Shown here: one piece after another, positions 4,887 through 21,066 of the stretch
Layout: every line of letters starts with the position of its first letter
How positions within the stretch are numbered: position 1 is the stretch's first letter
Origin: a virus
Reading direction: 5' to 3' (one strand)
IMG/VR virus record: IMGVR_UViG_3300044961_000149
Span: 1-21,150 of that record
DNA: 21,150 nucleotides
Translations under genes and position numbers: made by a program
The notes under the pieces: generated by a model
Database searches by the model: none
What the model was told of the DNA's origin: nothing
Seen by the model: the letters and a program-made list of their open reading frames with translations, nothing else

Positions 4887-6644
4887 TCATATTTTACCGG
4901 GTTTATCTAAACAACACTGTTGTCCAAGTTCGCACAATATCTCCTGCATTATTAAGTTAGCGTTTCGGTATCTTGTGCTTATTTTAGGAGAATAAGATTC
5001 GTGTAGGCCGGGAGCGACCATATTAGCTCCTATCGTTGATTCGTCTGAAACACAGTCAGATAGCGTAACCAATTCAAAGTCGTCCTGAACCTCTACCACT
5101 TCTGAGTCCCCCCCCTCTCTTAAAGGCTCTACTGATCCAAGGCCACGAGAACTTTGCCCAACTCTAAACCCCGCAAGTAAGATGTTTCTTACAATATTTC
5201 CCGATGGCGTTGGCAGTATCTCTACATCCCCGTAAACTTCATTGCCTTTCCAATTTACGTCAACTATTGCGTGACATACATTCTTTAAATTTACTATGTT
5301 TGAATTTCCAGTCCAGTGAGGCAATCCATTATATCTAGTATAAAAAGACCCATTATCAACTGTTACACAATGTACAGTATTATCATAGTCAACTTCTTCT
5401 ATACAAATGAATCTGAAATCCAAATGAATGGCTTTTGATGATTTAAAACATAGCCTATATAGAGTTTTTGAATTTTTTGCTTCTATCAATCTTCCTTCTA
5501 TTAACCTATCTTTAGGTGTCTGCTCTTTTATTACACCAGTTATCCCTAACTTCAACAAAATCTCATTAAAGTCTTCTATCATCTTCTTTGATACTGAAAA
5601 TATAGATTTTCTCTCGTATCCCTTATAAACTGGCTTAGTCTCATCACCAAGTAAATACCAATCAACAAATTCTTGAAGTAATTCTGATGATGCGTTTTTA
5701 ACATCTTTTGGAATATGTTTAGTGTACTTATCTCCTAGTTTTGATAGATATGTCCACAACCTCGCATCACTACACTTAAATATTAAACCTTTTCCATTTT
5801 TTCTCTCTGTTATTGTCCACTCTAATTCGCTTGAAAGTCCACTTATTAAGTTTAAGAACTTATCTGCTTTCTCCCCCTTATTCTGACTTATAAAGATACC
5901 GTAGCCTTTTGTACTATCTATATCAGTTATATGACCCTCTGCAAGATAGAATCCTAAAAATCCAAAAAAACTCTTAGAATCAAGAGTTAGCGGACTTAAA
6001 TATTTACTAATCCAGTTCTTGTTTGTAATATCTATATCTACACCCGGAATTATGTAGTATTTATCAGAAAAATCACCTATCCATTTTTCAGCGGTTATAG
6101 GTATTCTTAAATGTGAATTTTTATTTATTTTACTAATATCATAAATTTCTTGGGCAGTCTTTTCTACAAATTCATTATTCCTATCTAATAGATTGAACCT
6201 ATGGTTTGGTGTAACTACCATATCAATATTACGACCCTTTATGTGAATCATTTTACCTTTATAAGGTTCATTTACAACCCGTTTAACTGGCTGCATTTCT
6301 AATGCGCCTGTCTTAGTGTTTAGTGTTGGTATCTTTTCTCCAACTTCAACATCTTTAAGTAGTTTCCAGCCTGATTCTGTGAGAATTTCTGCTAAGTAAA
6401 ATTCGCATTCGGGATGGTCGAGTTCTCCGAACGCCCTTCTTTCTTTTATCTTATTCTCGTATAACCTTATCTCTCGCTCAAGTATATGTTTAGGATATAC
6501 CCTTTTATTCCTGTTGGGAGAATCAGCCCTTTGCAACAATACGTTCCTAATAATTAACCTTCCGTCATTCTTTTGGATTGACTCTATGAGGGCGGGTTTC
6601 TCTACTCCTATTAAAGCGGTATGTTCTATTAGTAATTGCTTCAT
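4887..6644 (-). CDS. 21: Prohead core protease gp21, intein-containing precursor
   Basis: The frame encodes 585 residues: exteins 1-79 and 448-585 (217 residues spliced, close to the 212 of T4 gp21) around a 368-residue intein. The N-extein ends AFGELDHPE; the His of LDHP (residue 77) is the expected catalytic His of this S-type herpesvirus-like protease family. The C-extein starts SNIVNLKNV and holds VGQSSRGLGSV (495-504), the expected catalytic Ser region. The intein separates these residues, so the protease should be inactive until spliced. gp21 degrades the scaffold and trims gp23 and other head proteins during maturation. The ATG has AAGG 7 bases ahead. A GIY-YIG remnant follows and a frameshifted gene precedes it. 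Confidence 0.94.
   Translation of the reverse strand: MKQLLIEHTALIGVEKPALIESIQKNDGRLIIRNVLLQRADSPNRNKRVYPKHILEREIRLYENKIKERRAFGELDHPECEFYLAEILTESGWKLLKDVEVGEKIPTLNTKTGALEMQPVKRVVNEPYKGKMIHIKGRNIDMVVTPNHRFNLLDRNNEFVEKTAQEIYDISKINKNSHLRIPITAEKWIGDFSDKYYIIPGVDIDITNKNWISKYLSPLTLDSKSFFGFLGFYLAEGHITDIDSTKGYGIFISQNKGEKADKFLNLISGLSSELEWTITERKNGKGLIFKCSDARLWTYLSKLGDKYTKHIPKDVKNASSELLQEFVDWYLLGDETKPVYKGYERKSIFSVSKKMIEDFNEILLKLGITGVIKEQTPKDRLIEGRLIEAKNSKTLYRLCFKSSKAIHLDFRFICIEEVDYDNTVHCVTVDNGSFYTRYNGLPHWTGNSNIVNLKNVCHAIVDVNWKGNEVYGDVEILPTPSGNIVRNILLAGFRVGQSSRGLGSVEPLREGGDSEVVEVQDDFELVTLSDCVSDESTIGANMVAPGLHESYSPKISTRYRNANLIMQEILCELGQQCCLDKPGKI
5304..6407 (-). mobile_element. Intein in gp21 with LAGLIDADG endonuclease (both acids kept)
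   Basis: The intein has 368 residues, from Cys80 to Asn447, followed by Ser448 as the +1 nucleophile. Block A is CEFYLAEILTESGWKLLKDV. Block B has TPNH (145-148). Block F and the end read VHCVTVDNGSFYTRYNG, then LPHWTGN. The penultimate residue is Gly instead of the usual His, a variant I recall from other phage inteins ending in GN/S. LAGLIDADG motif 1 is FLGFYLAEG (acid Glu236); motif 2 is VDWYLLGDE (acid Asp334). Both catalytic acids are therefore present, making this the inset most likely to code for a working homing endonuclease. The insertion point lies 3 residues after the catalytic His. Confidence 0.92.
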
Positions 6645-8828: not shown

Positions 8829-11783
8829 TTAATTAGGAAAATCATCGAGGATATTATCTTCATTCAGCATATTGACCGAGTCAATATTCTTATCTATTTC
8901 TAAAAGGGACTTTTTATTATCTTTATTGTATCTTTTTTCCAACCTTTTTATTAATTTTTCGTAAGATTCTTTGGCAACACTCGGCATTTCTATCTTATCG
9001 TTTTCCCTCCTACCTACGGGGTCTCTTCCAAAATCCTGATCTCTTTTAGTTTCAAAGTTTCCCTTATACTGTGGCGGCTTTCCTTCATTTTCCTCTCTGC
9101 CGTCCGGGGTATATAATTTCTCAATGTCTTCCTGTGATACGGGAAACATCCTACTACTTACTTGTAGGGATGCAATATCCCAAGGAGTTCCAAAAGATTT
9201 CCCAGATACCTGTGGATCATTGCCCTCTTCTGTGATTTGCTTTAGTCTAAAGGTCAGTTTTGCATCTTCTATCCTTCTGTCTATATCTGCTTTCCACTCG
9301 TCTTCGCTCATACCGAATATATTCTCATATATGTATTTTTGAGAAAACACGTTATCTTCTTTAATAGACTTTGCCAAGTCAACCTTTGCTGTCATAACGT
9401 CTGTTTTTTGACGCTCGAACACAAGACTTGGATTAGTCAAGTATATTTCAAATCCAAGCAAATCATCCTCTCTAAACCCTTGAGTATACAAGTGAATTAT
9501 TGCTATTTTATATAATTCTGAAACGAATATCTTCTGTACCCTTTCTACCGTCCTTGCGAACCTTACATCAAGAGATGCCAACCCAGCCTTTGAACTTCCT
9601 CCACTATCTTCTCCGTATCCGAGAAATTCTTTTGGTATCTTTAGTGCAGCCATCATTTTTTTTCTGACGTACTCCACGTCGTCCATAGCGTTCTGGTTTT
9701 GTAGGCCGGGCAACGTCTCTACCGAGTTTCCGCTCTGTCCGCCCCTTACTGGAAGGAACCAATCTTCTATCGCATTCTCAAGGTTATACCTTAAATTGTA
9801 CTCGCCTGTTTGAGGGTCTATGTATGGAGTTTTCTTCATCTCAGACACAATCTGCTCTACGTGAGCATCTACCTCTTCTGGTGCGATGTTTCCTATATCA
9901 ATTTTTACTATACGCCTCTCCGGCGCACGCATTATTCTGTGAAGAAGCACAGCATCTTCAAGTAAGGAAAGCATCTTGTATGACTTTTTAGCAGGCTCTA
10001 TGAAGGAGTTGTGAACTATTATTCCATTTGCAATGAAATTTGAATTGTCTGATTCAACTTGAATATCAAAAGTTTCTTGTGATTCTAATTGTTTTATACT
10101 CTTAACTGGTTTTAAGATTATATTATCAGAAGTAACTCTACTGTATTTTTTTTCTTGTCTTATTTTACTGCCCTCTAAATATATATAAAAATAGTAGCAA
10201 TCAGATTCTGGCAAAAATTTTTCTCTACTTTTTCGTGATAATCGGTGTCTATGTTTTATATTGGATGTTTTAATGTTTATAGTTGATGCTAATATCTTTA
10301 AATCTTGACATAATTCTCTATTAACCAATTCTATTTTATATCTCTTTACCCCATATTTATCTACATTAGTAGAGCCGTCTGCATCTATAAATCCCCTTAT
10401 AAAAGATTCTTTTAATTCTGGTGAAAGTTCAAATACCCAACTTGGAACCCGTTTTGTTTTAGCACCTCCTTTAAGTTCCATGTTGCTTAAAACAGTTGTT
10501 AACATCTTACTTGACACAATACAAGCATTTGGAAGTCCGTTATGTTTTGACTTGCTAAAATATGCAGTTTTACCACTAAACTTTTCAATTAAATTTTTAT
10601 AATAGTTGTTAATTTCTGGATAAACGCCACATGCAAAAGCAACTCTGTCCATAGTTAACCGACCGCCTCCAAGCAAAAACCCAAACAATCTAACAAATTC
10701 AGTATTTACAATATCTGGAACATTATCTATGTTATTTTTACATTCATTTTTATTGACACCATCCACTAAATTTTTATCAATAAAAACATCTCTGGATAAT
10801 GTATTTTTATTAGAATTTAAAACTAATAAATCCCCAACAACTATTTTATTTGCTGGCTTATATTTTAAACTTTCCGATCCCTTGTCAAAACACAGTATTG
10901 GATGTTCTTGTGAACATTTAATTGAATTATTCTGTGTGCATATTTCTATTAAATTCTTTACTCCACTACTAACTTTATTTACAACATAACTTAATTCTAA
11001 TTTATCTGTATTAATGTTATAAGTCCAAACTTTGTCTCCAACTACCACGTTATCAATTGTTTTTACTCCAAATTCCATATCAATATATGAATCTTTGGGC
11101 AGGCAGCGACCGTATGGCAAGTAGTTTGTATCGGTTAGCAACCTAAAATGGGCTATTTCAAATGCCTCAAATTTTTCTTGTGTAGTCCAATAACCTCCAT
11201 CACCGTCATATACAAATTGAACTATATCAGGGTTTTCTTTGTCAAGCCCTTCCTCCCTCCTGATTAGGCTAGGGTGTATAGGCATTACATTAGTTATGCC
11301 AAACTCTTCGTCAATTTGAAGATATAAAAAGTGGTCTCCATATTTACACATTGTCCTTATCCAAGACCACAAGTTAAACTCAATGTTCAGCACATCATAA
11401 AATAAATTATGTAATATCTTCTTTATCTTCTCGTTATCTGTCCTTATTTTTAACAACTGACCGTCTACATCTACTGTAGTGCTTTCTTCTGCTATTAAAT
11501 CAAGGGCAGAGGATATAATAGCATCGCTATCCATAAGTTCATAATCAATGTAAAACATCTTTCTAAGCGACTCTATTTCTTCGTTGGAGGTACTTCCACC
11601 GAATCCGGGGCCATAGCCGCCCATTCTCCCGCTGCGCCATTTAGACCTGTTTGAGTATTTTGTCGGCGATCCGACTGATTGACTCTTGCTAACATCGTAC
11701 GCTTTAAGCCTCCCTCCGGGAAGATGCTTGATAAGCACGTTCTTGGTGAACATGGTTTTTAACCTGTCTCTTATAGTAGCCAT
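8829..11783 (-). CDS. 20: Portal vertex protein gp20, intein-containing precursor
   Basis: The frame encodes 984 residues. The exteins (1-226 and 593-984, 618 residues spliced) match T4-type gp20, somewhat longer than T4's 524. The N-extein has LRKMFYIDYELMDSDAIISS and IRTMCKYGDHFLYLQIDEEF. The C-extein has SFIEPAKKSYKMLSLLEDAV, ERRIVKIDIGNI, KIPKEFLGYGEDSGGSSKAG and LASLDVRFARTVERVQ, all hallmarks of the family. gp20 forms the dodecameric ring at one head vertex that starts head assembly, docks the terminase and joins the tail. The join TNYLPYGR/SFIEPAKKS restores the usual sequence once the 366-residue intein is removed. The ATG has AGGAGA 7 bases ahead and lies inside the end of gp17 (13-base overlap). 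The extra C-terminal tail is Lys/Asp/Glu-rich. Confidence 0.95.
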   Translation of the reverse strand: MATIRDRLKTMFTKNVLIKHLPGGRLKAYDVSKSQSVGSPTKYSNRSKWRSGRMGGYGPGFGGSTSNEEIESLRKMFYIDYELMDSDAIISSALDLIAEESTTVDVDGQLLKIRTDNEKIKKILHNLFYDVLNIEFNLWSWIRTMCKYGDHFLYLQIDEEFGITNVMPIHPSLIRREEGLDKENPDIVQFVYDGDGGYWTTQEKFEAFEIAHFRLLTDTNYLPYGRCLPKDSYIDMEFGVKTIDNVVVGDKVWTYNINTDKLELSYVVNKVSSGVKNLIEICTQNNSIKCSQEHPILCFDKGSESLKYKPANKIVVGDLLVLNSNKNTLSRDVFIDKNLVDGVNKNECKNNIDNVPDIVNTEFVRLFGFLLGGGRLTMDRVAFACGVYPEINNYYKNLIEKFSGKTAYFSKSKHNGLPNACIVSSKMLTTVLSNMELKGGAKTKRVPSWVFELSPELKESFIRGFIDADGSTNVDKYGVKRYKIELVNRELCQDLKILASTINIKTSNIKHRHRLSRKSREKFLPESDCYYFYIYLEGSKIRQEKKYSRVTSDNIILKPVKSIKQLESQETFDIQVESDNSNFIANGIIVHNSFIEPAKKSYKMLSLLEDAVLLHRIMRAPERRIVKIDIGNIAPEEVDAHVEQIVSEMKKTPYIDPQTGEYNLRYNLENAIEDWFLPVRGGQSGNSVETLPGLQNQNAMDDVEYVRKKMMAALKIPKEFLGYGEDSGGSSKAGLASLDVRFARTVERVQKIFVSELYKIAIIHLYTQGFREDDLLGFEIYLTNPSLVFERQKTDVMTAKVDLAKSIKEDNVFSQKYIYENIFGMSEDEWKADIDRRIEDAKLTFRLKQITEEGNDPQVSGKSFGTPWDIASLQVSSRMFPVSQEDIEKLYTPDGREENEGKPPQYKGNFETKRDQDFGRDPVGRRENDKIEMPSVAKESYEKLIKRLEKRYNKDNKKSLLEIDKNIDSVNMLNEDNILDDFPN
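10008..11105 (-). mobile_element. Intein in gp20 with LAGLIDADG endonuclease (first acid lost)
   Basis: The intein has 366 residues, from Cys227 to Asn592, with Ser593 as +1. Block A is CLPKDSYIDMEFGVKTIDNV, followed by VGDKVWTYN. Block B reads KCSQEHPIL (Ser in the place of the usual Thr, His kept). Block F and the end read TFDIQVESDNSNFIANGIIV then HN, with the standard His-Asn. LAGLIDADG motif 1 is LFGFLLGGG, where the catalytic acid position is Gly373 (GGC, one transition from GAC). Motif 2 is IRGFIDADG with Asp469 intact. Splicing should be normal; cleavage of DNA is doubtful. Confidence 0.93.
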
Positions 11784-14467
11784 TTAAGATTCTCCTTTTG
11801 TCCTCTCACATCCATTTGCCATTTGTCTGCTCCAATAGGTTGTGGTTTGTAAACTGATTTGTGTGTATTTCTTATTGCATTTTTAATAAGTTCTATGCCC
11901 ATTTGCCTCATTCTTAGGGCAGTGTCTCTTATGTACATTCCCATAGCCCAGCACATAACCAAGTCGTCGGTTTTTCCTCTCTGTGCCTGCGGTTTTCCAT
12001 CATGCCATACGAAAACTCGCAACTCGTTCATAAATCTCTTTGAGTATATTATAGGGGTTCTTTCCCGAAAATACATCTCTAATTTTGATACAAAAACTGG
12101 CCTCAACCTTGTAGTTGTGGTTAATCCGGGTATCATATCCTCTTTGTTCTTTAGATCATAGTTCTTTCTTAAATGTATATTTTCATCAAGATAAGGGTCA
12201 TTTTTGTAAGAATAGTACAGGTTTTTATACCCTAAATCTAAGGCTACTTGAACTGTGCTCCAACCAACGTTTTTGTTGTCTATAACAAGCAAAGCATTAC
12301 CATACTCAGTAGCAACCGCAACCCCCATTCTTCCAAAAGACTGCGTATCAATCTTACCTCTATACTCTGCTACTTGCTCACAAGTTTCTACATCTATAAC
12401 CTGCATACCTGAGTTATCTTCTCCATCTCCACGAGCGGGGTCAAGTACAACAATGTAGTCTTTTATAGGGTCTGGGTACTTCCAAATCCAAAGGTCTCCT
12501 TCTACCCCTCTTTTTTCTAAAGGTTCTATGGTCTTTGCGTCATACTCTGCAAGTATGTCCGCTTCTATTACAGTGTGACCAGAGGTTAAAAAATCGCAAT
12601 CACAATTATGAACAACACCATGTTCTGTTATATAAGTGTGATCCTCATATACTTCTAAATTATATACCTTGACATCTTCTACAACACCTTCACTAATAAT
12701 TAGTCTGTTTTTAACATCACAAGAATATGAATTTTTAAAACTATAGGGAATATTTTTATTCCTTTTATAAGATAAATAGTAAGATTCTCTTATATTTACT
12801 ATCCTGCCTTCTATTGTTTCAACACCTGCTGTCTTTACCCTTCTTATTGATGTGTTTTTTATATTCAATAAATCTGAAATTGACTTTAAATCGTACAATA
12901 GTTCTAAGGACACTGTTGTTGATGTTTTTTTATACTTCTCTAACAGACACCCATCCCCTTGCAAATACCCTTCTAATATCCCTTTAAAAAAATTATAATT
13001 TCCATAAATATATGTGTTTTTAGATAATTTCTTTGTTGAGGATGAAGTACCTTCTACAAAAAAGTCAATAAAACCTGATATTATTGTGCTTGATATAGAT
13101 ATTTGTCCTGTGTTTTTTCCCGTAACCCTATCGTTAATCGGCGATTGTCCAAATAGTTTATTTAGTTTTTCAAACAGGTCTAATTTCCACTTGTTTAGTT
13201 CATGTTCTGCATTGCAACTAATTATCAATCTTGTTCGTGTTTTAGAACCTTTTGCCAAATATAGCCCAATCAAATGACCGGATTCCCAATCTATTGGGAT
13301 GTATCTAAAATATTCTTTTTTATGCCTTCTGTCATTTATGTAAAATCTATTAGCATCTTCTGTTAGTTTTTTCTTAAAGAATACAGGACTTAACACATCG
13401 TATAAATCCAAAATACTCGTAGAACTTTTAATTTCAAAATCAGGCAAATTACACAACACATGTTCATTATTAAAATCTCCAACATTTACCCACCCATTAT
13501 CAGTTAAAAACGGGTGATTTTTAGTAACAAAGGATTTTTTTAACCTGTTATTTGAACTATATAATTCTACACAATTATTAGATATATGACTCATAACCCT
13601 TACCACAGGTCTTAGTCTGCCTTTGTGAGTAAACACTAATTCGCCTATTCTTATGTCCTTTATACACTTATATCCAGTCTCAGTCAGCACTCTGGTATCT
13701 CCATCAAAACATTCCTGAGCTGCTTGTCTCTTTCCTAACAAATGGTCATAACCGTCTCTCCACTTCTGATCTCGTTCTGGGTGCAAATACCAAGGTAGTT
13801 TTATTGGATTAAATGCTTCTATACCATCAGCAACACCTTCTTCTGCTTTTACCCAAAGGTCGTGGAACGTGTTTCCTGTTCCGTTCGGTGTTGATAGTAT
13901 TATACATTTACCGCCTGTTGCTAATGTCATCTGCGCTGATGTCCATATAGCTTCAGAAGACTCTACGAACGCGAACTCATCACAAATTAACAGTGACAAG
14001 GACGCTGAACGTGCAGCATCAGGTGAACTTGATACTGCTTTGATTGAACTTCCGTTGCTGAACACAAGACTTAACTTGTTTTTGTTTACTATTGACAAGC
14101 CTCCTTGCTTTAGAAAGTTTGGAAGCAGCTCGAACATCAACTGAACCTTTTCTACAAGGCTCTTGGCTACTTCTTGTGTGGTTGCTATTACCAATATTTT
14201 ATAGTCGTCATTGAACATCATCTCATGTAGGGCATACCCTGCTGTTAATGTGCTTATGCCCATCTGTCGAGACTTTAAAATTATGTTATACCTGTTCCGT
14301 TGAAGTTGGTATAAAGTTTCCTCTTGGAAAGGATACAAGTCAAATAATATCTTTCCTTTCTTAGGGTGCGAAATCTTTGCGTATTTCTTAAAGAAATAAA
14401 CTGGATCGGTACCGCACTTTAAGAACTCGTCTTTTACTATCTGTCTTAAATTATCTGGGGCTTCTAT
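11771..14467 (-). CDS. 17: Terminase large subunit gp17, intein-containing precursor; no ATG start
   Basis: gp17 is the ATPase-nuclease motor that packages DNA through the portal. Numbered from an ATA at 14467-14465, the precursor has 898 residues (529 after splicing). Residues 2-43 (EAPDNLRQIVKDEFLKCGTD, then PVYFFKKYAKISHPKKG) continue into LYPFQEETLY as in gp17 homologues, so this region belongs to the gene. The Walker A variant SRQMGIST is at 66-73, Walker B LLICDEF at 159-165, and the coupling motif STPNG follows. Nuclease acids appear as VLDPARG (Asp676), VIDNKN (Asp730, where T4 has Glu) and GKTDDLV. An in-frame TGA sits directly upstream and no ATG, GTG or CTG exists before it. The first common start is a TTG at 14338-14336, which would remove 43 conserved residues and has a poor ribosome site. 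AGAGGA lies 7 bases before the ATA. Confidence 0.93.
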   Translation of the reverse strand: MEAPDNLRQIVKDEFLKCGTDPVYFFKKYAKISHPKKGKILFDLYPFQEETLYQLQRNRYNIILKSRQMGISTLTAGYALHEMMFNDDYKILVIATTQEVAKSLVEKVQLMFELLPNFLKQGGLSIVNKNKLSLVFSNGSSIKAVSSSPDAARSASLSLLICDEFAFVESSEAIWTSAQMTLATGGKCIILSTPNGTGNTFHDLWVKAEEGVADGIEAFNPIKLPWYLHPERDQKWRDGYDHLLGKRQAAQECFDGDTRVLTETGYKCIKDIRIGELVFTHKGRLRPVVRVMSHISNNCVELYSSNNRLKKSFVTKNHPFLTDNGWVNVGDFNNEHVLCNLPDFEIKSSTSILDLYDVLSPVFFKKKLTEDANRFYINDRRHKKEYFRYIPIDWESGHLIGLYLAKGSKTRTRLIISCNAEHELNKWKLDLFEKLNKLFGQSPINDRVTGKNTGQISISSTIISGFIDFFVEGTSSSTKKLSKNTYIYGNYNFFKGILEGYLQGDGCLLEKYKKTSTTVSLELLYDLKSISDLLNIKNTSIRRVKTAGVETIEGRIVNIRESYYLSYKRNKNIPYSFKNSYSCDVKNRLIISEGVVEDVKVYNLEVYEDHTYITEHGVVHNCDCDFLTSGHTVIEADILAEYDAKTIEPLEKRGVEGDLWIWKYPDPIKDYIVVLDPARGDGEDNSGMQVIDVETCEQVAEYRGKIDTQSFGRMGVAVATEYGNALLVIDNKNVGWSTVQVALDLGYKNLYYSYKNDPYLDENIHLRKNYDLKNKEDMIPGLTTTTRLRPVFVSKLEMYFRERTPIIYSKRFMNELRVFVWHDGKPQAQRGKTDDLVMCWAMGMYIRDTALRMRQMGIELIKNAIRNTHKSVYKPQPIGADKWQMDVRGQKENLKWLL
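12605..13711 (-). mobile_element. Intein in gp17 with LAGLIDADG endonuclease (first acid lost)
   Basis: The intein has 369 residues, beginning at Cys (13711-13709) after AAQE and ending at Asn (12605-12607) before CDCDF. Block A is CFDGDTRVLTETGYKCIKDI. Block B has VTKNHPFLTDNGW (TxxH). Block F and the end read VYNLEVYEDHTYITEHGVVH then N, with Cys as +1. LAGLIDADG motif 1 is LIGLYLAKG, where the usual Glu/Asp is Lys (AAA, one transition from GAA). Motif 2 is LEGYLQGDG with the Asp kept. Removing the intein joins AAQE to CDCDFLTSG, the normal gp17 sequence that follows the ATPase domain. Splicing looks intact, while DNA cleavage is doubtful. Confidence 0.94.
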
Positions 14468-15114
14468 AGCTCATTCCTCTTTGTTTCAAATTGCTCAAGA
14501 GTCCTCTTCTTAAACTCTGCATATTGTTCATCAATCATCTTTTTATAAGACTCAGGGTCTTGAAAACTCCACTTTTCAACAACATTATTATTGTCAGTTT
14601 CATCCCCTGCAAAGTTGATGTTCATTATTTCTCTTTTTAGTACTTCCACCTCTACATCTGCTTGTTTAAAGAAAGATTCCGCATTTGCCTTCATCTTATT
14701 TAAGGCATATTCGTTGAACTTTCCTTTAATTTTCAATGAAGTTTCGTAAGAAATAAGGCACTCCTCACACATTCCTGCAATTATTCTAAATTTTTCATCA
14801 AGTCTTGTAGGATTATGACAAGTACATTGTTCTTTTGGGCAATTAGGGAAAGAGCGTAGCCAAGTTCTCGTATCTTGCATCATTTTATTTACGCTCGGAT
14901 GTACGTTTGTCTTTACTCTGTAACCTTCAAACTGTTCATACCATGTACTATTTCCGTGTATGTCTTTGACTTCCCATATCTCCCCAACCTCCCTTTTTTT
15001 ATTGCGCTCTGCGGTCGCAGCAACATCAGAAAATCCGATAGTAGTTCTGGTTTGTGTTCTGTGAGTTCCAGCAAGCATCTCGTTGATTGCTTTTATGTTT
15101 TTTAGTTTGCTCAT
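14464..15114 (-). CDS. Zinc-ribbon protein upstream of gp17 (possible small terminase or packaging factor)
   Basis: This 216-residue protein starts MSKLKNIKAINEMLAGTHRT. The middle has VGEIWEVKDIHGNSTWYEQF and EGYRVK. A Cys cluster at 92-119 (Cys92, Cys97, Cys99, Cys116, Cys119; CPKEQCTCHN and MCEEC) looks like a zinc ribbon. The C-terminal 95 residues are helical and charged, with probable coiled coil. I recall similar zinc-bearing proteins next to gp17 in other T4-like phages, without a proven role. In T4 the gene before gp17 is gp16, the small terminase, but I see no clear gp16 likeness, so that reading rests on position. The ATG follows AGGA closely. The stop (TAG) overlaps the proposed ATA start of gp17 as ATAG. 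Confidence 0.78.
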   Translation of the reverse strand: MSKLKNIKAINEMLAGTHRTQTRTTIGFSDVAATAERNKKREVGEIWEVKDIHGNSTWYEQFEGYRVKTNVHPSVNKMMQDTRTWLRSFPNCPKEQCTCHNPTRLDEKFRIIAGMCEECLISYETSLKIKGKFNEYALNKMKANAESFFKQADVEVEVLKREIMNINFAGDETDNNNVVEKWSFQDPESYKKMIDEQYAEFKKRTLEQFETKRNEL

Positions 15115-15496: not shown

Positions 15497-17503
15497 CTAA
15501 GTATTAAAATTATTGTTAAAAACGTATTTTTTCCAAATATTAAAAATAGGAACCAAAGCAGCGAAAGAGCCTGTGAGTTTAAAAGTTCGGCCACCCCACT
15601 GAAAAACAATACCTTCTATAGGGTTAATAGCAGAAAACCCCCCCAAACGATCAAGCAAATAAAAAGAATCCTCAAAAGTTGATAAATCGGAATCGTTAGT
15701 CAAAGAATTGCCAACATAATCAATGATAGAAACAACCCTGTTAACGTTGCCAGCAAAGTCAGGAATTCTAAAATTATGCTTAATGACTGCATTGCCTAAA
15801 TCAAGTATAAATAACTTGATTTCAAAAAGCTGTTCAGTAGGAAGTGAAATTATGTTAGCAGATTCTGGGATTTTAAACTTATGTTGGAGCAGGTTCAGTC
15901 GGGCTATGAGCAGGTCTGCGCTTGGCAATGCGCTCAATTTTACCTTCGGGGTTTCTATTATAGCCACTCCTTCATACGTCCTTCCTAAGACAACATCCAC
16001 CACTTCGGGCAAAACCGAGGTTCTGTGCAACTCGTTGCCCATTTGGTCATACGTTATCATGCCATGCACGGATAGTGCCTTGTAGCCCGTTTTTAACACA
16101 TTTAAAGGCTCTTCATGCAAAATCTCAAAGTTAAGAAACACTGTTCCATTCCCAAACACTCTGTTTAGGGCGTTTTTGTCTGCGCCGGACAGAGCTGCTT
16201 CAATTACTTTAAAAGCCTCGCAAAAAACAGCCCGCGCTTTTGGCTTGTCCGCATATTTAATAGCCAACTGTTCAAAAGACATAGGGCTTACTACAGTACT
16301 TTTGTTCCTTGAGCAAGCGAACCTTCCGTCTCTATAAGTCATCTGAAAATTCCATCCATCTAATTTTAAAGTACAATCGGCTATGCTCTGTACGTTTTTA
16401 GTGACATCAAAGACAAACCTCTTCAACTCAGTAAAAGTCATGTCTGTTTCGTATGGATGGGATATGTGCCTATTATATTTTCCTTGGTTTGTTGTGTCAG
16501 GCTCAAAAACTTCTTTAAACTGTTCGACCTTATATATTGGATCACTGGTGTAAAAATTCTTCTTCCTCATTACTGTTTTGGGCACGAGATCGAGTTCTTT
16601 TTTATCCTTGTCCCACTTTATTATAAAAGGTATGTTTATGTCGGTGCTCATGTCTTTTAACACGCCCTCTGCCCCTGAATTTGCCTTAGACAGGGCTTCG
16701 CCGTATTTCTGAGAAACTTTCCTGAACAACTGTTTTATTTCGTCGGCAGTAATCTCAGGCTTGTTCCTTGGGTCGTTCAACCTTTGATAAAAGTGACTGT
16801 CCCTGAGCATGGTCTTGAAGTCTATACCAATCCCAAACCTAAAGAACAGTGCATCAGCATATTGCTCCAGTCTATGCAACTCTGTTTTGCTTATACGAGA
16901 CTCTTGTAAAGAGTCAAACGCTTCTTTTACGAACGAAAGGCTTTTATTTGATTGAAACTTCCTTCTAAAGGTGCTGTAAATACTATCATCAAACCATCCC
17001 ATCAGGTCAAGCATTTCTTTCCTTGTACAGTCCGATAATACCTCCCTTAGATATGTTCCACATATTTCATTTCCGTTATGAAATATGCTAACGTGAGGAG
17101 CCACAACCACATACGCACTGTCCTTGAAAGGGTCTAATACGTGTTGCCCAATGTATTTTTTAAAGTATGAAGGGCTTCCATCCCTTTTCTTAAACCCAAT
17201 CCTGCCATAATCCTTTTGTCCATACACTACTATCAACCTGTCTACTTTTTTATCAAATTTGCTCAAAAGATTTATTGGCATGTAGGGCTTTTCTGCCTCT
17301 ATTATCTTGTTTTTGGGTATTCCGTATTTTCTAATTACAGCAGACTTTTCCTCAAAATTAAGGGGGCTTTTGTCATCAACTGCATTACTCGTTGAAATAT
17401 ATACATTATCCGCACCAAACCTTTCTGTCACCCATTCATAGGTTTGATAGTGATGTTTTCCAAACGGCTGAAATCTTCCGGGATATATTACTATCGTTTT
17501 CAT
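15497..17503 (-). CDS. Two-domain protein: NMNAT-like adenylyltransferase plus ligase-like nucleotidyltransferase
   Basis: Residues 1-160 of this 668-residue protein look like a nucleotidylyltransferase of the HxGH superfamily. GRFQPFGKHHYQTYEW (9-24) corresponds to GRFxPxHxGH with a degenerate His motif (GKHH). VYGQKDYGRIGF lies in the middle, and ICGTYLREVL (147-156) corresponds to the ISxTxIR phosphate-binding motif. This class includes NMN adenylyltransferases of NAD synthesis. The C-terminal part carries, in order, KLDG (380-383, nucleotidyl-Lys motif I), YRDGRFACSR (390-399), VFLNFEILHE (455-464, motif III), LSVHGMITYD (477-486, motif IIIa), EGIVFQW (630-636, motif IV) and FKLTG (641-645, possible motif V). 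This is the pattern of ATP-dependent DNA/RNA ligases and capping enzymes. I infer a fusion of two nucleotidyl-transfer domains; substrates are unknown. The ATG overlaps the stop of the fibre gene as ATGA. Confidence 0.75.
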   Translation of the reverse strand: MKTIVIYPGRFQPFGKHHYQTYEWVTERFGADNVYISTSNAVDDKSPLNFEEKSAVIRKYGIPKNKIIEAEKPYMPINLLSKFDKKVDRLIVVYGQKDYGRIGFKKRDGSPSYFKKYIGQHVLDPFKDSAYVVVAPHVSIFHNGNEICGTYLREVLSDCTRKEMLDLMGWFDDSIYSTFRRKFQSNKSLSFVKEAFDSLQESRISKTELHRLEQYADALFFRFGIGIDFKTMLRDSHFYQRLNDPRNKPEITADEIKQLFRKVSQKYGEALSKANSGAEGVLKDMSTDINIPFIIKWDKDKKELDLVPKTVMRKKNFYTSDPIYKVEQFKEVFEPDTTNQGKYNRHISHPYETDMTFTELKRFVFDVTKNVQSIADCTLKLDGWNFQMTYRDGRFACSRNKSTVVSPMSFEQLAIKYADKPKARAVFCEAFKVIEAALSGADKNALNRVFGNGTVFLNFEILHEEPLNVLKTGYKALSVHGMITYDQMGNELHRTSVLPEVVDVVLGRTYEGVAIIETPKVKLSALPSADLLIARLNLLQHKFKIPESANIISLPTEQLFEIKLFILDLGNAVIKHNFRIPDFAGNVNRVVSIIDYVGNSLTNDSDLSTFEDSFYLLDRLGGFSAINPIEGIVFQWGGRTFKLTGSFAALVPIFNIWKKYVFNNNFNT

Positions 17504-20500
17504 ATTCTTATTTCATGTTTTATTATTTTGGCAGATGTAGCGACATAAGCAGTCCAAAAAAAAGAAGAAGTAGGTCTTAAATTCATGTTAATCTTTATAT
17601 TACCTGAACTTAACGCATCGGATACAATTGAAATTTTATACCAATTTGACAAATCTTTTTTATTTCCAAAAACAGTACCATAACCCCCTAAAGAGCTACT
17701 ATTATTGGCAGAACTTGACACTAATGATATACCTGATATGTAAGTTCCTAATATGTCTTTTGGGTTATATAATATCCTGAATTGACACGTTGATGCCCAA
17801 TTATACGTATCTATCGGAGAGGCCAAACTACCGGTTATCCCGTATATCATATTTTCTACTTCTACCAAATGGGTTGCATTATATATGGTTGGTGTGATGG
17901 GCGTATTATCATCACTTCCTAACAATACTGGAATATATACATTAAAGTTAAAATTTGCATTGTTTACACTATGTACGCTTTGTGTTATAAAATCTACTCT
18001 CGTAGTCCAGTAGCTTGAACTATACCCTCTTTCAATATTTACACCGCTCCCCATCCTTACCCTATTATCAGTAGAACTGCTTATATACTTTAAGGGTTCA
18101 TTTGCTACTGAACCTGAAACTGTACCGTCTGATGTTAAAATTCTATATATGCCGGGGGTTTTTATTACTGGTTTATTAGTTATTTGGTCATAATTTACTT
18201 GTTTAGAAGAACTATACTGTCCAGAAAAAGACCCTGAGAAAGAGCCTGTTGCACGAGCAACTACCAAAAAAGAAGATATTGTGACGCTCCCGCTTACTGA
18301 CTGGTTCCCGTTGAACTGGTTAGATCCTGTTGTGGCGTATGAGCCTGTTTTTATTTCTATGTTGTTAAGTCTTGTGTCGTTAGAACTGGTGTAAGTATTA
18401 AGTGAGCCTGTGGTAAGCTCAATAGCGCTAAGTCTTATGTTTGTAGACCCTGTGTGGTTGTTTAAGGGAATTATAGAACTCGTGTATAGATACGAACCTG
18501 TTATATTTTCAATACCGATTACCCTTGTATTGATGCTCCCTGTAAAAGTATTGAGCGAACCAGTAGTCTGCTCTATCGAATACACCCTTTTCGATAAAGA
18601 ACTTGATACGTATGTAAACGATCCACTTATATCAGACCCTATTTGAGCGGAACTTGAGACTAATCCCGTTCCCTTTCGTTCATACCTTATATCATAAGAA
18701 GATGTAAACTGCTCCGATCCAGAAGATACCCCTGTTGGTAGTAATACTTTTATTTGAGCAGAACTTGATGGCATTCCTTGGAAAATGCCACTGAAACTAC
18801 CAGTAGCAAATACAAAGGAAATAGACCCGCTTACATCTAGTGAACCTGTTATTTTCTGATTTCCAATAAACGTATTTGAACCAGTAGTTGCGTATGACCC
18901 AGTATTTGTCTCAAGCGAGTTTAATCTTGAATTTGCTGAACCTGTAAATATGTTTAAACTTCCAGTTGTTTGCTCAAGCGAGTATATTCTTTTTGATATG
19001 GAACTGGATACGTCGGTAAATGACCCGCTTATATCAGACCTTATTTGAGCAGAACTTGATATTATACCTGTTCCTTTTCTTTCGTATCTCCAATCAAAAC
19101 TTGAAGTTAACTGGTCACTTCCAGATACTGTTCCGGAAGGTATAGTAGTACTGACCGCAGCCGAAGAACTTGCGGTATTCCCATCAAACACTACTCCATA
19201 TAGAGAAGTACCGATATTAGCCTTTTCGTTCTTTGAGTTTAAATATTCAATGAATATGCCCAGTTCTGAGCGGGCATCGAACTCTTTTGGTAGAGGTACT
19301 TCAAGGTCAATGTAATTTGCAGAATATCCGGGCTTGTTTCTAACAGAAAGCGTGATATTAGAATACACTGCACCAGTTGTCCTGTTTACAAACCTCGGCG
19401 TAATCTTTCCGTCCTTATTAGGCACAAAGTAGAATGTTGGGCTACTTTTTAACGTTTTGCTATCGTCAACACTTCCTATGTAAGTCCCAAACCTTGCGTT
19501 CTTTATAGGAGAATATGTTGCCGTCTGATTAGACGTTACATTGTCAATCTCTGAACCAGATATGTAAACATCCAACTGTCTTCTTATTGTGGTGGGGGTG
19601 TTGCCAAGGTATGCCATATCAAAAGACAACTCATACTCTGTTCCTTTTTTAACAGGTATTAAGTAATCATGTAACAAGTAGAACTCTGAGTACTCAAGAG
19701 AAGTTCTAAACGAACTGCTGTCAGGGAACAGTACACCATTCAAAAGGGCATCATTGTTTGAGAAAGATATAGCACTCCCTGTCGTACTAGAACCCGTCCA
19801 ATATGTCAAAGGGTTTCCGAGTTTCCTGAAATCTCCTAGACCTAAAGGTTCTATACCTTTGGATGTCATAGTGTATGACCCTGTTCCTACTGTCAATATG
19901 TTCTTTCTGCCAACATCGTATGTCCCAAGGTCAATGTATTGACCGGGTTTATTTATGCTTTTTGCTTTTACATTTATAGCCTTTATAGAACCTATTGCAG
20001 GCTCTGAATTTTCTATTTGTAACTTTATATAAGAATCATAACTTGCCGTTGAAATAGTTAATTTAGGCTCTATGTGATAAGATGCTGTAAAATTACTAAC
20101 CTCTCTAAATCCATCCAATACTAATTTTCTCGCTGTTCCTGTATTATCAGTATAGTTTAATATATGATAAAAAGTAGGCGTTACAAAACATGTGCTCTTG
20201 TTCACTATCTTTACTATTGACCCACTGTAATTAAGAACCTTTGACTCTGTTAGGACTGCATTGGCTGGATATGAGTAAGGGATGTTGTTAAAATATAACC
20301 TCCCCCCTTCCATAGAAGCAGTGATGTCGAAATTAGTAAAATAAACAGATGCTATCTCATTACCATCTCCTATTGGAGTGATAGGGACAAATGTTGCGGA
20401 AGAAGTTCCATTGCTCAATATGTGGCCAGAGGTAGCCCCTCCCCTACTTTCTATCTCTTTTACGGTGTTTAGTTGCCCTCTGTTAGAATACATTGTGGCT

Positions 20501-21066
20501 GTTGAAGAAGAAGTAGAGTATATATTTACCAATCTGTTATCAGTGTTTAACCTATACTGAGGCTTTCTGATCTCTGAATATGTTACGGTCGGTGGAATGG
20601 AAAAATAAACAGGACTTTCCACTTCTTTCGGGTTTATTTGAAGTACCTTTCTCCAAACTACATTTGGTATTCCGTGAAAGTCCTGCGAACTCGGATCATT
20701 TGAGTAAGGTATCTTTAAGCCTGTCTTTGGGTTTGTTTCGAGCCTTCCTGCTATTATTAATTCGCACTCGCCTATAGGGGTAGTGTCATAAATATAAACA
20801 ACGACAATCCGCTCTTTGTTGGGCAGATTATCTCTGATTATCGTATAATATATTGGGTTGCCAAATTTATCAAGTATGTCTATAAACACCTCTGATCTAT
20901 GAACAAGCACATTACCGTTGAGGTGTAATTTAAAAGAGTTTTTCCCAAGTAAAAACTTATCTGGAAGGTCTGTGACCTTGAAGGTATAATCTGCATTTGC
21001 GGATATGTCTTGAAATACGTATGTTTTATTTTTTAGTCCGTTTAACGGTCTTTTTAACTCAAGCAC
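17500..21066 (-). CDS. Large repeat-rich structural protein, probable tail fibre or baseplate appendage
   Basis: The product has 1188 residues. The start is GTG, with GGAGG 7 bases ahead. The first 150 residues (KTYVFQDISANADYTFKVTD, IDILDKFGNPIYYTIIRDN) look like a beta-sandwich attachment domain. Residues 150-640 are beta-rich and Ser/Thr/Gly-rich. Residues 645-950 hold a long duplicated segment with SSSAQI, DISGSFT, LEQTTGSLN and RLNSLETNTGSYATTGSN, typical of trimeric fibre shafts with short coiled stretches. The last 200 residues form another beta-rich domain with few charges, which might be the receptor-binding tip. No chaperone or peptidase domain and no cysteine-rich region is seen. 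Such proteins are common in T4-like phages of aquatic bacteria. The partner gene upstream overlaps it by 13 bases. Confidence 0.75.
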   Translation of the reverse strand: MLELKRPLNGLKNKTYVFQDISANADYTFKVTDLPDKFLLGKNSFKLHLNGNVLVHRSEVFIDILDKFGNPIYYTIIRDNLPNKERIVVVYIYDTTPIGECELIIAGRLETNPKTGLKIPYSNDPSSQDFHGIPNVVWRKVLQINPKEVESPVYFSIPPTVTYSEIRKPQYRLNTDNRLVNIYSTSSSTATMYSNRGQLNTVKEIESRGGATSGHILSNGTSSATFVPITPIGDGNEIASVYFTNFDITASMEGGRLYFNNIPYSYPANAVLTESKVLNYSGSIVKIVNKSTCFVTPTFYHILNYTDNTGTARKLVLDGFREVSNFTASYHIEPKLTISTASYDSYIKLQIENSEPAIGSIKAINVKAKSINKPGQYIDLGTYDVGRKNILTVGTGSYTMTSKGIEPLGLGDFRKLGNPLTYWTGSSTTGSAISFSNNDALLNGVLFPDSSSFRTSLEYSEFYLLHDYLIPVKKGTEYELSFDMAYLGNTPTTIRRQLDVYISGSEIDNVTSNQTATYSPIKNARFGTYIGSVDDSKTLKSSPTFYFVPNKDGKITPRFVNRTTGAVYSNITLSVRNKPGYSANYIDLEVPLPKEFDARSELGIFIEYLNSKNEKANIGTSLYGVVFDGNTASSSAAVSTTIPSGTVSGSDQLTSSFDWRYERKGTGIISSSAQIRSDISGSFTDVSSSISKRIYSLEQTTGSLNIFTGSANSRLNSLETNTGSYATTGSNTFIGNQKITGSLDVSGSISFVFATGSFSGIFQGMPSSSAQIKVLLPTGVSSGSEQFTSSYDIRYERKGTGLVSSSAQIGSDISGSFTYVSSSLSKRVYSIEQTTGSLNTFTGSINTRVIGIENITGSYLYTSSIIPLNNHTGSTNIRLSAIELTTGSLNTYTSSNDTRLNNIEIKTGSYATTGSNQFNGNQSVSGSVTISSFLVVARATGSFSGSFSGQYSSSKQVNYDQITNKPVIKTPGIYRILTSDGTVSGSVANEPLKYISSSTDNRVRMGSGVNIERGYSSSYWTTRVDFITQSVHSVNNANFNFNVYIPVLLGSDDNTPITPTIYNATHLVEVENMIYGITGSLASPIDTYNWASTCQFRILYNPKDILGTYISGISLVSSSANNSSSLGGYGTVFGNKKDLSNWYKISIVSDALSSGNIKINMNLRPTSSFFWTAYVATSAKIIKHEIRI
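18220..18726 (-). repeat. Fibre repeat, copy B (residues 781-949)
   Basis: This copy starts SSGSEQFTSSYDIRYERKG and repeats copy A through SSSAQIGSDISGSFT, SKRVYSIEQTTGSLNTFTGS and TGSYATTGSNQFNGNQSVSG. It differs by carrying additional short units (NTRVIGIENITGSY, NIRLSAIELTTGSLN, DTRLNNIEIKTGSY) in place of a single unit in copy A. The change in unit number suggests growth by slippage or unequal recombination. Confidence 0.8.
18775..19125 (-). repeat. Fibre repeat, copy A (residues 648-764)
   Basis: This copy starts SGSDQLTSSFDWRYERKG and runs through SSSAQIRSDISGSFT, SKRIYSLEQTTGSLNIFTGS, NSRLNSLETNTGSYATTGSN and TFIGNQKITGSLDVSGS to ATGSFSGIFQG. The same order of motifs returns in copy B about 400 bases further in transcription. 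Confidence 0.8.

Follow-up and report, generated by a model that had tools for sequence, protein, structure and literature searches.

A gene in the late packaging cluster of a T4-like phage raises the question of what is done by a single polypeptide with an NMNAT-like nucleotidyltransferase domain at one end and a domain resembling ligases at the other. The window (the whole stretch of DNA that was analysed) is a virus record of 21,150 bases. The gene is a 668-amino acid open reading frame (ORF) on the minus strand, with coordinates checked on the window sequence; it starts with ATG, in a four-base overlap with the stop of the ORF upstream, and a protein 100% identical to its product is found on IMGVR_UViG_3300045902_000205, a 30.6-kb IMG/VR contig. 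The original prediction described a fusion of two domains, and both are present, as are the ORF and all of the quoted motifs when their positions are checked; however, a third domain, in the middle of the protein at residues 203-326, had been missed. The features discussed below are as follows.

15497-17503, minus strand: fusion ORF of 668 amino acids with N-terminal, middle, and C-terminal domains (N-M-C; N-M-C relatives L170, L172, and L090)
16943-17503, minus strand: HxGH/HIGH-type nucleotidyltransferase domain, residues 1-187 (NMNAT/NadD/PPAT fold; Pfam, model, VIA-align)
16526-16897, minus strand: middle domain, residues 203-326 (PHROG 23027, PHROG 14518)
15524-16492, minus strand: domain assigned to the covalent nucleotidyltransferases (RNA-ligase-like), residues 338-660 (AlphaFold model, VIA-align, Foldseek, motifs)
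16355-16366, minus strand: motif I, Lys380-Leu-Asp-Gly, with the predicted AMP-acceptor lysine (K, D, and G invariant in 76 of 76)
16124-16126, minus strand: motif III, Glu460 of NFEIL (76 of 76; equivalent to T4 Rnl1 Glu159 in hhalign)
15611-15616, minus strand: motif IV, Glu630-Gly631 of EGIVF (75 of 75)
15569-15580, minus strand: motif V, Lys642-Leu-Thr-Gly, with KxTG replacing the KxK of Rnl1 (K, T, and G in 75 of 75)
15644-15937, minus strand: helical insert between motifs IIIa and IV, approximately residues 523-620 (model helices, alignment)
14464-15114, minus strand: conserved downstream neighbour of 216 amino acids (homologue downstream in 66 of 90 loci)
11771-14338, minus strand: terminase large subunit (TerL) with an apparent intein (PHROG terminase, E 6.9e-41)

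The neighbours in the window are a fibre-like repeat protein, two small genes, TerL, the portal, the prohead protease, and other head genes. In 84 of 90 loci TerL follows downstream on the same strand, at a mean gap of approximately 1.2 kb, and synteny with TerL or with the 216-amino acid neighbour includes the Microcystis phage Mel-JY01 and loci L173, L174 (TerL), and L176. The 216-amino acid protein has a Cys cluster (CPKEQCTCH...CEEC) and adjoins TerL in 66 of the 90 loci; no convincing family match was found for it, and it is a candidate small terminase subunit or packaging factor. The fibre-like protein (17500-21066, 1188 amino acids), directly upstream of the fusion ORF, has GSISGSFTGSFSGS-type repeats; homologues of it occupy the upstream position in L170, L172, and L090, and in L006 an N-terminal part of similar appearance is found there. 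TerL (11771-14338), the portal (8829-11783), and the prohead protease (4887-6644) each carry an apparent in-frame intein, two of the three with LAGLIDADG-like segments, and the TerL of L170 and L172 (530-531 amino acids) appears to be without one.

The C-terminal domain contains LKLDG (379-383), SRNKS (398-402), NFEIL (458-462), SVHGMITYD (478-486), EGIVF (630-634), and FKLTG (641-645). From Lys380 to Glu630 there are 250 residues, the distance between motifs I and IV that had been predicted, and the helical insert between IIIa and IV accounts for approximately 100 residues and is larger in marine relatives. K380, D382, G383, K401, E460, N468, E630, G631, K642, T644, and G645 are invariant among 75-76 distinct homologous C domains, as are His346 and His349 ahead of motif I. 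The original prediction had been staked on conservation of Lys380, which is unchanged in all 76; it also described motif V as weak, but this motif is a family-specific [FWY]KxTG in which K, T, and G never vary. The sequence and fold hallmarks of the superfamily are present: the motif I KxDG Lys, the motif III Glu, the motif IV EG, the motif V Lys, and the nucleotidyltransferase-domain fold. The core persists in the remote homologue L174, with the invariant columns H, H, K, D, G, E, N, E, G, K, T, G, and F in an alignment of 34 rows. This protein (L174:4962-5996), encoded upstream of TerL, is a stand-alone relative of the ligase-like domain of 344 amino acids with KIDG, DRGS, EGMVV, and FKITG, and may be a compact ancestral form.

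Conservation of this kind bears on whether the protein is virion-related, with a ligase-like fold that no longer ligates, as the assembly role of T4 Rnl1 (annotated as a tail fiber attachment catalyst) might suggest. In addition to that annotation of T4 rnlA, the late-gene location and the fibre-like repeat protein encoded just ahead of the fusion, both in the window and in the N-M-C relatives, are in keeping with a virion role, and the TerL synteny could also mean a structural or packaging role. However, the fibre gene was recognised, by the search used, in the N-M-C clade only, and a purely structural role would not need the invariance of all catalytic positions across very divergent members. 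A role limited to the virion is considered very improbable.

Direct Pfam and PHROG scans gave no match for the C domain, and a single-sequence PDB search with it gave only a chance match to DnaJ. Pfam RNA_ligase was matched at motif I in four relatives (E 0.005-0.04). A PDB profile search with four rows weakly matched motif I of LigA (E 2), and with a deeper alignment of 34 rows it found no ligase. Identification of the domain as a named cyanophage DUF was dropped, as the name was absent from the literature searched and there was no such Pfam match.

The C half and the N+M half were modelled separately, with rows from the phages collection left out, and the AlphaFold2 model of the C domain (31 homologues) has a pLDDT of 89 and a pTM of 0.85. 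When VIA-align was run on Foldseek's candidates for this model, T4 Rnl1 was at the top (Z 9.7 over 182 residues at 4.0 Å), and the other RNA ligases included Trl1 (9.6), the Naegleria ligase (9.3), T4 Rnl2 (8.1), the editing ligase REL1 (7.7), and archaeal ligases (7.2-7.8). The first 34 entries are RNA ligases except for 3qwu (Z 7.5), archived as a putative ATP-dependent DNA ligase; other DNA ligases are lower, at Z 6.9 or less, and LigA and capping enzymes are not among the entries listed, which is not evidence of absence. Foldseek agrees with RNA ligases, with a modest best E of 3.7e-3 and low TM-scores (approximately 0.3), because the C domain is divergent and has a large helical insert. 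In a viral-library comparison, most of the named enzymes, past same-family and unnamed phage proteins, are RNA ligases. In an unguided hhalign comparison with the T4 Rnl1 alignment, motifs I and III each fell on their counterparts and RNK fell on KxK, with P 0.0087 (0.034 with fewer rows), compared to P 0.11 and 0.21 for unrelated controls. The C domain is almost certainly a covalent nucleotidyltransferase, and that it joins RNA is quite likely. The modelled fold is that of the ligase/capping superfamily, as first proposed, and not an unrelated one; of the two types then named, the domain resembles RNA ligases rather than capping enzymes.

T4 Rnl1 (gp63) is the best fold match and has the KxDG, downstream [KR]xK, N-x-E, EG, and FK motifs in the same order, with a motif IV-V spacing of 13 compared to 12 here. 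Rnl1 differs, however, in motif V, where its KxK (K240 and K242, invariant in the Rnl1 alignment) corresponds to KxTG, the second Lys being Thr in 75 of 75 family members. The helical insert, an HxxHP[FY] sequence ahead of motif I, and the NMNAT-like fusion are found here and not in Rnl1. Rnl1 also runs approximately 130 residues past motif V, whereas the window protein ends approximately 26 residues past K642. Since motif V is without the second Lys and the Rnl1 C-terminal domain is absent, the C domain is not filed as an Rnl1 member; it is its own RNA-ligase-like family within the superfamily.

The short C-terminal end is also relevant to the proposal that the C domain seals nicks in DNA, one use being to supply the terminase with an unbroken template, in which case the site beside TerL and the portal would reflect a packaging role. 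DNA ligases, as members of this superfamily, match with Z values of up to approximately 7, and the closeness of TerL in most loci is as this proposal would have it, but several families of RNA ligases have higher scores (Z 7.2-9.7). Translation stops so soon after motif V that there is no room for the OB fold of a DNA ligase, and the CCA-adding and RNase_T-type domains fused to some relatives act on RNA in known systems. Sealing of DNA is judged improbable, and the RNA-joining reading of the C domain is retained in what follows.

The N-terminal domain carries GRFQPFGKHH at residues 9-18, with a GxHH variant of the active site at 15-18, and ICGTYLR at 147-153, with CGTxxR at 148-153. Residues 1-187 match Pfam CTP_transf_like weakly (E 6e-4), and in the model of residues 1-335 (pLDDT 85.8) the N domain is mostly above 90 and has a Rossmann-like NMNAT/PPAT fold. 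The NMNAT-like fold that had been predicted is borne out by VIA-align at Z 11-12, but NadD, archaeal NMNAT, NadM, and PPAT are tied (Z 11.3-12.4), and the substrate is not readable from the modelled fold. The window protein does not have the canonical HxGH. Its GKHH, taken at first as a degenerate form, is instead a family-wide GxHH: 33 of 46 ligase-fused N domains have GxHH, 11 have HxGH, and two are unreadable. Because a well-supported HxGH clade is nested among GxHH members in the tree, the site seems interconvertible and not decayed. The GRFQPF and SGTxxR signatures resemble those of NMNAT, and activity of the N domain on NMN is possible, if somewhat doubtful. Phage NadM and NadR, which are NMN adenylyltransferases (PMC9503650), share the HIGH-superfamily fold, GRFQPF, and SGTxxR, and have a further likeness in the kinase or Nudix domains fused in some relatives; unlike them, most members here have GxHH, a ligase is the partner, and the kinase is of the AAA_33/zeta type by Pfam.

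A NAD-centred function would have the N domain make NAD from NMN and the C domain use NAD instead of ATP as its source of AMP, or the pair act on NAD-type RNA ends. The bifunctional NMNAT/Nudix enzyme that is the top Foldseek match of the N domain fits such a function, together with the GRFQPF...SGTxxR signature, a Nudix domain in one relative, and a tree compatible with a single origin of the N-C pairing. However, no LigA domain Ia was seen, the fold matches do not separate NMNAT from NadD and PPAT, and most members have another residue in place of the first HxGH His; the probability given to this function is low. That one polypeptide couples NAD-type adenylyl transfer to RNA-end ligation, with GxHH as the site of new chemistry, is unlikely; such coupling could, for example, take the form of installing, removing, or resealing nicotinamide-adenine-type RNA ends, or of using NAD made in situ as the AMP donor.

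The first C-domain homologues were in Mel-JY01 and two huge uncultured phages, and a profile from an alignment of four C domains was searched against IMG/VR, giving at least 594 confirmed relatives on viral contigs, of which 80 loci were kept. There was no C-domain match in plasmids, and bacterial and archaeal genome contigs gave a single locus, on a Flavobacteriales MAG contig that is probably phage since it carries TerL and portal. Among 34 distinct C-domain ORFs whose 5' end is complete, 31 have the N domain, counts that are not independent samples because loci were picked by similarity. L173, L174, and L005 lack the N domain; the gene that comes next downstream in L005 ends in an N-type domain. 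The pairing is real, and the original prediction was correct to treat it as meaningful. In the tree the ligase-fused N domains cluster, with support of 99/87 when the long L006 branch is left out and 95/46 when it is included; the N-M-C proteins, the window's among them, form a single clade (100/99). No account of an NMNAT-like/RNA-ligase fusion turned up in the literature searched; the C domain lacks a Pfam or PHROG model, and its proteins are annotated at most as cytidyltransferase-like.

Pfam recognises AAA_33/zeta kinase in nine of 34 flanking segments, a CCA-adding head with an RNA-binding domain in four (best E 4e-31), HD in two, Nudix in one, and RNase_T in one. The AAA_33/zeta modules are, by sequence, candidate polynucleotide kinases and not proven ones, and the kinase, CCA, and phosphatase modules are absent from the window's own protein. 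On a Flavobacteriales-binned contig, L176:835-6558 is a 1907-amino acid ORF that joins a CCA-adding-type head and an RNA-binding domain to the N-C core. In L060:1946-5260 the N-C core is joined to a DnaQ/RNase_T-type exonuclease, and the 216-amino acid neighbour is upstream and not downstream. The parts used for RNA repair in jumbo phages include ATP-grasp RNA ligases, polynucleotide kinases, HD-like phosphatases, and CCA-adding enzymes (PMC7824862), and it is mainly because the accessory domains are of the same kinds that RNA-end repair is favoured. The domains of the related fusions and the site upstream of TerL point to RNA-end repair rather than specifically to the linking of NAD synthesis to sealing that was first suggested.

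Polyvalent proteins of phages and conjugative elements (PMC5512222) are likewise variable multi-domain fusions beside virion and packaging genes, but here the nucleotidyltransferase-ligase core is constant. In that study the 2H domains are reported never to be associated with RNA ligases, and its text contains neither nicotinamide nor HIGH nucleotidyltransferase as a term. Polyvalent proteins encoded near virion genes are proposed to be packaged and injected (PMC5512222), and by analogy the fusion protein may be delivered in the virion.

The middle domain matches PHROG 23027 (E 2.6e-22) and 14518, occurs alone or with the N domain in at least 510 viral contigs, and is widespread in T4-like phages. 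Its alignment has the invariant sequences HF..R..D.RN and KT.MRK, and His237 is invariant. VIA-align of the N+M model lists nothing for this domain, which is not evidence of absence. RegB_T4 (PF10715) was matched by one of 20 members (E 0.0016), and when 3,533 ORFs are ranked with the RegB HMM, those with the middle domain come out unusually high; they make up more than half of the top 25 and are mutually related. The HxxxR context resembles T4 RegB, but by eye catalytic His68 has no counterpart, nor is there a clear one for the second catalytic His of RegB (PMC3014915). In addition, hhalign against RegB gave no support, so RegB identity is suggestive and not accepted. These weak sequence hints make a RegB/RelE-type RNase, with the BECR fold, a lead. 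In Sinorhizobium phage phiM12, L004:3540-5348 combines a degenerate N-type domain with the same middle domain and is encoded close to primase and thymidylate synthase, not TerL.

The protein is probably a three-domain phage nucleotidyltransferase of an RNA-repair toolkit family, with a C domain that works as an ATP-dependent RNA ligase. From the computed fold, motif conservation, pairing, and synteny we infer catalysis, RNA as the substrate, and a role in repair, the last with an even chance of being correct. Lys380 is predicted to accept AMP from ATP and would pass it to an RNA 5'-phosphate, after which a 3'-OH would close the break. The N domain, a fixed partner, would most likely make or regenerate an adenylylated nucleotide (e.g. 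NAD) or bind an adenylylated RNA end, and binding or cleavage of RNA is the probable task of the middle domain. Relatives add 5'-end kinase-type, CCA-adding-type, HD, Nudix, or 3'-exonuclease-type modules, giving a polyvalent RNA-repair toolkit beside the packaging genes, and the family probably protects tRNAs and other RNAs against RNase-based host defence.

If this is correct, then a function is given to a large domain that had no annotation and is present in at least 594 viral contigs. New RNA ligases would be useful reagents, and through the constant NMNAT-like pairing a link of NAD-type nucleotide chemistry to RNA sealing can be put to the test. Many T4-like marine phages, it would seem, maintain an RNA-ligase-like core next to their packaging genes and recruit RNA-end enzymes to it, which is consistent with strong pressure from host defences that cut RNA.
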